Of a stretch of 32,350 bases of DNA, positions 8,860 to 11,569 are shown piece by piece. The DNA is from Polyangiaceae bacterium (GTDB lineage: Bacteria > Myxococcota_A > Polyangia > Polyangiales > Polyangiaceae). The notes below the pieces were generated by a model. It worked only from the letters and a program-made list of their open reading frames with translations, had not been told where the DNA came from and did no database searches. The stretch lies in the NCBI GenBank assembly GCA_020848455.1, contig JADLAB010000256.1:1-32350 (forward strand). The letters run 5' to 3'. The position numbers were made by a program, and so were the translations under genes. Position 1 is the first letter of the stretch; every line of letters starts with the position of its first letter.

Positions 8860-10848
8860 TCAGTCCGCCACGCAGCGGAAGCCGACGTGCACCGAGCGCT
8901 CGCTCGGGGCGAGGCCGCGCCGCGCGCTCGTGCGCAGCAGGCGGCCCTCGCCGTCACCCCAGTGCCCGCCGCGCACGACGCGCCGCGCGTGGCCGGGCTC
9001 GTCGTACCAGCCGTCCACCCACTCGGCGACGTTGCCCGCCATGCCGAGCGCACCGTAGGGGCTCGCGCCGCCGGGCTTGCTCTCGGCCTCCATGGTGCCG
9101 CCTGCCCCGCAGCCCTCGGCGCCCTGCGTCATGACCGTGAAGTTGCAGCTCGCGGAGGGGCCGCCCCAGGGGAACTTCCGCCCGTCGAGCCCGCGCGCCG
9201 CCTTCTCCCACTCGTTCTCGTGGGGCAGCCGACCGCCCGCCCAGCGGCAGAAGGCCTCGGCCTGTGCGAAGTCGACGCAGTTGATCGGGTGACCGACCCG
9301 TTCGCCGTGCTGCCAGTTGCAGCGCTCGTTCGGTGCGGCGCTCCGCCCGCCGCCGTGCTCGCTGCCGAGCCCCTCGGCGCTGCAGGCGCCCGCGCGCACG
9401 CACGCCGCGAAGTCGCCCGTGCGCACCTCGCTGCGGTCCATGCGGAGCGCCGTGACGCTGGCGACGTGCCCGGGCTTCTCGTCGGCGGCGCAGTCGGCGT
9501 CGATGGCCTCCTTGCAGCCGTACCAGAACTCGCCGCCGGGTACGGTCACGCGCCGCGCCGCGAGCTGCGCGAGCAACGCGTCCGCGGCCCCACCGGCGGC
9601 GCTCGGGGCGGCCGAGCCGGCCGGTCGCTCCGGTGCGGCGCTCGCGGTCGCGCTCGCGGTCGCGCTCGTCGTCGTCGCCGGGGTGGCGCTCGCGCTCGCG
9701 CTCGTCGGCGGGGCGGCGGGGGCCGTCGGCGGGGCGCCCGTGCGCACGCCGGCGGGTGCGACGGTCGCGGCGAGCGAGGCTGCCGCGCTCGGCGCGCTTC
9801 CGGTCGTCGGCTCGCTCGCGCCGGAGCCGGGGGCGCCGGTCGCCACGCTGGGGTCGAGGGTCGCGCGCGCCTCCTGCACCGGGCCCCGCCGTCCGCCGAG
9901 CGTGGCGAGCACGACCACCGTCGCGAGCGCCGTGGCGAGCCCCGTGGCCGCGACCGAGGCGAGCATGTGCCGCTTCACGCTGCGCGCCGCCACCGACTTG
10001 CGCTCGAGGGCCGCGAAGCTCTGCGCCATTTCCCCGCCGGATTGCGGGCGCAGCGACCGGTCCGGGTGGAACACGCGCACGAACCAGGCGTCGTAGAGCT
10101 TGCCGAGGCTCGGGCGGGCGCGGCTCGGCGCGTAGAGCTTGCCCTCGAGGATGGCGTTGCACGTCTCGACCATGTCGTCGCCGCGGAACGGCAGCTCGCC
10201 GGTGAGGCACTTGTACACCGTGACGCCGAGCGCCCAGAGGTCGGTCCGGAAGTCGACCTTGCCCGGGTTCGCGAGCTGGTCGGGGCTCACGTACGCGGGC
10301 GTGCCCACCACGAGGTCGGGCGCGGTCTGCGGTCGCTCCTGGCGCGGGCCGAGGTGCTTGGCGCTGCCGAAGTCGACCATCTTGATGTGCGGCTCGCCGT
10401 GCATGTACGAGAGGAAGATGTTCTGCGGCTTCACGTCGCGGTGCACGATGCCGACCGCGTGGGCGGCGTCGAGCGCCCGCCCGGCCTGGCGCAGGATCTC
10501 GCCGACCTCCGTGGGCCCGAAGGGACCGGAGCGCTCGATGTGCTCCTGCAGCGACTCGCCCTCGAGCAGCTCCATCACGATGTAGGCCGCGCCGTCCTTG
10601 GTTTGGCCGCAGTCGAAGATGCGCACCACGTGCGGGCTGTGGACCTTGGCGGTCGCCTCCGCCTCGAGCGCGAAGCGCTGCTCGAGGTCGCCGAAGCGCT
10701 CGGTCGCCTCGTCGAGGATGAGCTTGACCGCGACCTCGGTCTTCAGGGTCGTGTGCTCGGCCACCCACAGGTCGCCCATCGCGCCCTGCCGCAGCCGGCG
10801 CACCAGCCGGAGCTTGTCGGTGATGTGGGTGCCGGGCTGTAGCTCCAT
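8860..10848 (-). CDS. Ser/Thr protein kinase with transmembrane segment and C-terminal FGE-sulfatase-like domain
   Basis: The 662-residue protein (start ATG 10848; an in-frame ATG at 10884 adds 12 residues, and neither has a clear Shine-Dalgarno) begins with a Hanks-type kinase domain (about 12-285). The catalytic residues look intact: Gly loop RQGAMG (20-25), Lys42 (VAVK), HRD (137-139) with Asn144, DFG (159-161) and GTPAY. A transmembrane helix lies at about 295-318. An Ala/Thr/Ser/Pro linker (about 319-430) leads to a formylglycine-generating-enzyme-like domain (433-662) with GGEFWYG, NEWEKAARG, GNVAEWV and VVRGGHWG. The kinase should be cytoplasmic and the FGE-like domain periplasmic. The FGE domain lacks the RGGSxxC-type catalytic cysteines (it reads RGGHWGDGEG), so I expect a sensory or binding role. 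The gene is coupled to the RlmL-type gene downstream. Confidence 0.92.
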   Translation of the reverse strand: MELQPGTHITDKLRLVRRLRQGAMGDLWVAEHTTLKTEVAVKLILDEATERFGDLEQRFALEAEATAKVHSPHVVRIFDCGQTKDGAAYIVMELLEGESLQEHIERSGPFGPTEVGEILRQAGRALDAAHAVGIVHRDVKPQNIFLSYMHGEPHIKMVDFGSAKHLGPRQERPQTAPDLVVGTPAYVSPDQLANPGKVDFRTDLWALGVTVYKCLTGELPFRGDDMVETCNAILEGKLYAPSRARPSLGKLYDAWFVRVFHPDRSLRPQSGGEMAQSFAALERKSVAARSVKRHMLASVAATGLATALATVVVLATLGGRRGPVQEARATLDPSVATGAPGSGASEPTTGSAPSAAASLAATVAPAGVRTGAPPTAPAAPPTSASASATPATTTSATASATASAAPERPAGSAAPSAAGGAADALLAQLAARRVTVPGGEFWYGCKEAIDADCAADEKPGHVASVTALRMDRSEVRTGDFAACVRAGACSAEGLGSEHGGGRSAAPNERCNWQHGERVGHPINCVDFAQAEAFCRWAGGRLPHENEWEKAARGLDGRKFPWGGPSASCNFTVMTQGAEGCGAGGTMEAESKPGGASPYGALGMAGNVAEWVDGWYDEPGHARRVVRGGHWGDGEGRLLRTSARRGLAPSERSVHVGFRCVAD
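9639..9706 (-). repeat. Low-complexity tandem repeat coding the Ala/Ser/Thr linker
   Basis: Short GCGCTCGCGGTC and GCGCTCGCGCTC-like units repeat within the kinase-FGE gene. They encode the Ser/Ala/Thr-rich flexible linker between the membrane helix and the FGE-like domain. Such tracts tend to vary in length between strains. Confidence 0.5.
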
Positions 10849-10928
10849 GGCGCGCTGCGAGGGTCCCCGTGAGGCAGATGACATGCCAACACGCGGGGCC
10901 TGGAAGATCAACGTTTCGGCTGTCCGCC

Positions 10929-11005: not shown

Positions 11006-11569
11006 TCACTCGCTCGCGGAGCCGCGCACCTCGCCGAGCACGCGCAGGATCTCGGCCGGCGACGTGCGGTCGGCGGCGTTCTCGCCGACCTTGCGCAGCC
11101 GGATGCGGCCGGCGCGGTCGACGACGAACACGGCCGGGATCGCGATGTCGCGTCCCTCCATCGCGACGCCGTAGGCGAGGGCGACCCGGAGGTCGGGGTC
11201 GCTCAGCAGCGGGATGTGCAGGCCGAGCTCCTGCGCGAACGACTGCGACACCTCGCGGTCGTCCACGCTCACCGCCACGACGTGCGCGCCCGTCTTCTCG
11301 ATGTCGCGCCGGGCCTGTTCCAGCTCAACTAGCTGGTCGCGACAGAAGATTCACCAGAAGCCCCGGTAGAAGACGACGACGACGGGGCCGAGCTTGCGCA
11401 GGCCCGCGAGGCTCATCGTCTGGCCGTCGTGGCTCGGCAGCGTGAAGTCGGGGGCGGGCTCGCCCGGCGGGGGGCCGGGCGCGCGCGGCACGAGCTTGCA
11501 GCCCGCGAGCGCGCCCGCGAGCGCGAGGCCGAGGAGGCCGTGGTGGAAGCTGCGGCGCGCGAGCGACAT
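11006..11569 (-). CDS. Selenocysteine-containing redoxin-fold lipoprotein (in-frame UGA = Sec73), Tat-type signal
   Basis: Reading UGA at 11353-11351 as selenocysteine gives a continuous 187-residue protein. Residues 1-24 are a Tat-like lipoprotein signal: ARRSFHH, a hydrophobic run, then LAGC with Cys24. The peroxiredoxin/thioredoxin-fold domain begins at about 36 (GEPAPDFTLP). It contains VVVFYRGFW-U73-IF-C76, where relatives in the AhpC/TSA redoxin-like group have CxxC. It continues with VVAVSVDD, IPLLSDPD and the cis-Pro region AIPAVFVVD. Without readthrough both halves are useless fragments of the same fold, in the same frame. A SECIS-like hairpin follows the UGA. The terminal stop is also UGA, without such a hairpin. 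The likely role is thiol/peroxide reduction at the cell envelope. The gene lies 65 bp downstream of the ppx-like gene on the same strand. A nonsense-mutated pseudogene is the alternative, which the intact flanks make unlikely. Confidence 0.87.
11314..11346 (-). promoter_or_regulatory. Predicted bacterial SECIS element
   Basis: Directly after the UGA, CCAGCU (11336-11331) pairs perfectly with AGCUGG (11325-11320) around the loop AGUUG. A lower helix UCUGU/ACAGG (11346-11342 with 11318-11314) forms below an asymmetric bulge. The distance from UGA to the apical loop is 20 nt, and G is the second loop base. Both agree with the published bacterial SECIS consensus (16-37 nt; G among the first two loop bases). 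The loop requires codons CTA and GTT, which are uncommon in this window, suggesting selection on RNA structure. Confidence 0.78.

Follow-up and report, generated by a model that had tools for sequence, protein, structure and literature searches.

A gene interrupted in frame by a single UGA

The window analysed here is the whole 32,350-nucleotide stretch of contig JADLAB010000256.1 from a Polyangiaceae bacterium (assembly GCA_020848455.1). Its minus strand carries a frame of 188 codons in which one TGA is the sole internal stop (Table 1). Minus-strand translation gives MSLARRSFHHGLLGLALAGALAGCKLV...VVVFYRGFW-UGA-IFCRDQLVELEQ...RGSASE, and reading the TGA as selenocysteine (Sec) gives VVVFYRGFW-U-IFC-RDQL around residue 73. 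The standard ORF list shows the gene only as pieces. On the same strand, the gene is flanked upstream by a Ppx/GppA phosphatase and an MFS transporter, and downstream by a Ser/Thr protein kinase fused to a formylglycine-generating-enzyme-like (FGE-sulfatase) domain (8863-10851, minus strand) and an RlmL-like methyltransferase; none of these flanking genes has a clear functional link to it.

Table 1. Features of the predicted selenoprotein gene (positions are those of the window).
Feature	Position	Strand	Details
Whole predicted selenoprotein gene	11006..11569	-	ATG 11569-11567, terminal TGA 11008-11006; 187 aa, Sec at 73
Putative N-terminal signal MSLARRSFHHGLLGLALAGALAGC	11498..11569	-	RR, hydrophobic stretch, lipobox LAGC (Cys24)
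In-frame TGA, Sec reading (U73 of FYRGFW-U-IFC)	11351..11353	-	TGA at the same codon in 57/57 UGA-type homologues; Cys (TGC/TGT) in 13 others
Resolving/partner Cys76 codon of UxxC	11342..11344	-	Invariant in the nine-row protein alignment
Predicted bacterial SECIS hairpin CCAGCU-AGUUG-AGCUGG	11320..11336	-	Loop 11330-11326, conserved G 11329; agrees with the bSECIS model

One Pfam AhpC-TSA domain (PF00578) covers residues 35-157 (E = 4.4e-32, 111.1 bits against a cut-off of 26) and runs unbroken across the UGA. The AlphaFold model made from nine rows of relatives (pLDDT 85) showed a continuous peroxiredoxin fold, with residue 73 immediately preceding helix 74-92; this location just before the helix is the active-site place in thioredoxin folds. 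Aligning homologues at this codon gave 57 forms with UGA and 13 with Cys. The preliminary description had claimed that the frame is broken by the UGA alone, that a redoxin fold continues on both sides of it and that it falls on the first Cys of the CxxC motif of relatives, and all of this was confirmed.

A UxxC motif with Sec first is characteristic of the Prx-like thiol:disulfide oxidoreductases, which are separate from the TxxU peroxiredoxins (PMC1088965, PMC9312934). Selenoproteins of this family (PF00578, UxxC/UxxU; representative WP_010940744.1) have been listed (PMC13188914, PMC9312934) and occur in Geobacter and other Deltaproteobacteria (PMC1794560). Judged by domain and motif, the predicted product belongs to this already catalogued family: it has the same Pfam domain, which scored above the AhpC-TSA gathering score, and the same UxxC motif with Sec first and with Cys in the non-Sec homologues. 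Compared with the published description of the family, the clade examined here adds an N-terminal lipoprotein-type signal and an FYRGxWU signature. The best NCBIfam match was NF040769 (SelL-related redox protein, residues 38-134), but at 72.5 bits it falls short of the curated cut-off (120 bits) and covers no more than the model's N-terminal half, so the protein is not a SelL-related member by that model.

The best PDB matches were AhpE of M. tuberculosis and then other peroxiredoxins, and the fold is shared with AhpE and the PrxQ/Bcp peroxiredoxins (TM-score up to 0.92, normalised by target). These nearest solved structures argue for a Sec protein acting as a peroxidase (1-Cys/2-Cys peroxiredoxin) and not as a thiol:disulfide oxidoreductase. 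However, the catalytic motif of AhpE and PrxQ/Bcp is TxxC, while here it is UxxC; when the sequences are aligned, it is Cys76 that matches the peroxidatic Cys, Sec73 lying three residues before it, and this speaks for chemistry of the thiol:disulfide type. The UxxC motif also resembles that of thioredoxin-like oxidoreductases, set apart from the TxxU peroxiredoxins (PMC1088965), and the PxxxTxxC motif of typical 2-Cys/1-Cys peroxiredoxins is absent here, with YRGFWUIFC in its place. We consider a peroxidase function a serious though less likely alternative, and prefer the thiol:disulfide oxidoreductase reading.

The hairpin downstream of the UGA

The predicted SECIS hairpin begins 14 nt downstream of the UGA. 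The bSECIS model (PMC13188914) comprises a stem of 4-16 bp capped by an apical loop of 3-9 nt whose first or second base is G, commonly with G or U as the next base, a distance of 16-37 nt from the UGA to the apical loop and a minimum free energy not above -7.5 kcal/mol. The hairpin found here has a 5-nt loop (A-G-U-U-G) on 6 bp, a UGA-to-loop distance of 20 nt and an energy of -8.9 kcal/mol (28 nt) or -9.4 kcal/mol (33 nt). Its loop is closed by an A/G mismatch, compared to the C-GGU-G loop in most homologues. In a 65-nt context, the minimum-free-energy fold was a different structure (z -0.51), and folding energy alone therefore gives the SECIS no support; this alternative fold uses bases that would be covered by the ribosome at the UGA. 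An Rfam scan of the window returned no match.

The preliminary description had reported this stem, with G second in its loop and 20 nt from the UGA, and had noted that the loop is written in the codons CTA and GTT, rare in the window. Both points stood: CTA and GTT account for 2.5 and 3.6 per 1000 codons, compared to 61.7 for CTC and 33.3 for GTC. A lower UCUGU/ACAGG helix had also been described; such pairing is possible in this gene, but the five pairs are present in only 23, 32, 52, 15 and 28 of the 57 homologues, and a same-genus relative breaks one of them (TGT to TGC). It was rejected as part of the SECIS, as it is not conserved across these homologues. The conclusion of a Sec codon with a SECIS was right, but the evidence drawn from one gene was weak: all 6 pairs arise in 19% of synonymous re-drawings of the same peptide. 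Single-gene significance was consequently rejected, and the significance of the hairpin comes from the family.

Pairs were counted taking the T of TGA as base 0, with bases 17-22 pairing with bases 28-33, and five homologues outside the signature that gives the U/C register were excluded from the hairpin counts. The UGA forms (n = 57) had a mean of 5.68 pairs out of 6, compared to 4.52 expected from synonymous re-drawing (300 trials, maximum 4.81), while the Cys forms (n = 13) had 3.85 compared to 3.57 expected, which was not significant; in this null, the codon usage of the window's genes was applied to all genomes. The basal pair of the UGA forms varies on both sides (CG 32, GC 17, TA 1, AT 1), that is, it covaries from CG to GC, AU or UA. 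The fourth pair was GC in 47, AT in 4 and GT in 5 UGA forms, and the loop G (base 24) was invariant (57/57). A bSECIS-type hairpin was present in 56 of the 57 UGA forms compared to 4 of the 13 Cys forms, in a simplified test of loop size, loop G, spacing and a stem of 5 bp or more. A covariation count on 22 sequences was set aside as biased, because these had been picked mostly with the hairpin; the counts on the 57 UGA and 13 Cys forms are the unbiased ones.

Conservation of the UGA and the Sec machinery

A second, independent MAG from this genus ('Myxococcales bacterium', L021) encodes a protein that is 95% identical to the one described here, with TGA at the same codon. Past the UGA, the two genes differ in 9 codons synonymously and in 4 non-synonymously, a pattern indicating that purifying selection acts on the downstream half; no difference falls within codons 78-84, where the hairpin lies. 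In the class, 61 of 318 genomes had the TGA form of the protein. A tRNA-Sec scoring above the cut-off of its family was present in 54 of these 61 genomes compared to 84 of the 257 others (Fisher p = 8e-16, a value that is optimistic owing to the relatedness between genomes). Six of the seven TGA-form genomes without tRNA-Sec are less than 90% complete. No tRNA-Sec above the threshold was detected in the same-genus MAG G001, plausibly due to its 86% completeness.

The family is present in 3-4 copies in each of four genomes (G157, G158, G150 and G171), and most of these copies have TGA; UxxC selenoproteins may have expanded in family f29. In the UGA-type homologue L128 there is another TGA some 40 codons upstream, for which a frameshift or a missed start is a likelier explanation than a second Sec. 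Homologue matches labelled '1 TAG' or '2 TAG' were rejected as cases of second recoding, the TAGs being terminal or upstream stops.

The source genome of the window is a MAG of 9.2 Mb in 742 contigs (96.5% complete, 4.75% contamination), and the linkage between the window and the Sec machinery consequently rests on binning. selA, selB, selC and selD were all found in this genome above their curated cut-offs, so a Sec reading cannot be dismissed on their absence. The tRNA-Sec scored 75.4 bits (cut-off 47) and was called by ARAGORN as tRNA-SeC(tca), with a UCA anticodon. selB (293 bits) lies directly beside it; the two are divergent neighbours on contig C410 (L001 and L009), with approximately 58 nt between match ends. 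selA scored 470 bits and selD 312 bits. The selD gene (L017:1531-1571, contig C11) is itself a selenoprotein gene, with its own TGA in frame after GGG (GGG-U-ARK), which we take to be the catalytic position. A perfect 7-bp SECIS-like hairpin, AGAGCCU-GGUCC-AGGCUCU with the loop GGUCC (L017:1553-1571), is found 19 nt past that UGA.

The Sec interpretation of the UGA, made in the preliminary description, is strongly supported by this machinery and by the TGA conserved in relatives. Suppressor tRNAs that insert Cys at UGA are known from some bacteria, and the non-UGA homologues have Cys at this position; both would agree with a UGA recoded as another residue (Trp, or Cys via tRNA-Cys(UCA)) or with generic readthrough. 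We regard this as very improbable, as the genome has the complete selA/selB/selC/selD set, the SECIS-type hairpin is found mainly with the UGA forms, and UGA remains a stop in this genome, since the gene and its relative both end with TGA. A true stop, arising from a recent pseudogene or from a sequencing error in place of TGC or TGT, would fit the two fragments of standard annotation and the ORF pieces, but can practically be discarded. The TGA sits at the same codon in the independent same-genus MAG and in each of the 57 UGA-type homologues compared (from the set of 61 genomes), selection past the UGA is purifying and the hairpin is conserved; the recurrence of the codon in that MAG and in many genomes rules out in practice a misread TGC or TGT, the possibility raised in the preliminary description.

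Predicted envelope location and mechanism

In the AlphaFold model, residues 1-24 have low confidence. In most homologues the N-terminus has a hydrophobic stretch that ends with a lipobox-like [A/S/G]-[A/G]-C, frequently with RR before it (LALAGALAGC here; ALLALAAGC and GALAVLLASGC in homologues); export and lipid anchoring in the cell envelope are therefore probable for the protein. The conserved lipobox is the least described aspect of this myxobacterial clade. The newest review (PMC13188914) mentions neither lipoproteins nor selenoproteins of Myxococcota, suggesting, with the weak weight of one review, that a class-wide lipoprotein form may be undescribed. It is conceivable, although we would not yet call it probable, that myxobacteria have class-wide exported, lipid-anchored selenoproteins with Sec at an envelope Prx-like catalytic site, sometimes in several copies per genome, the Sec being retained although Cys forms coexist.

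We are highly confident that the gene product is a thiol oxidoreductase of peroxiredoxin fold, with Sec73 as the nucleophile of UxxC, SelB-dependent Sec insertion and probable envelope anchoring. Frame, conserved UGA, covarying hairpin, Sec machinery and fold were obtained by computation, and from there we infer Sec insertion, export, substrate and reductant as follows. SelB-GTP-Sec-tRNA(Sec), bound to the predicted hairpin, would bring Sec to the UGA in place of release factor 2. The lipoprotein-type N-terminal signal would direct the product to export and anchoring in the envelope. There, the selenolate of Sec73 would act as nucleophile on its substrate, a peroxide or a disulfide, Cys76 would resolve Sec73 to give a selenenylsulfide, and a thioredoxin-type partner would reduce the latter.

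A gene usually annotated as two fragments or as a pseudogene would accordingly be read as functional, and UGA-type members of its family are common in the class (61/318 genomes). With its U forms and C forms, and the hairpin present or absent, the family offers a clean natural comparison for the exchange of Cys to Sec paired with acquisition of a SECIS. The lipobox points to selenium taking part in the redox defence of the envelope, which has been little described.
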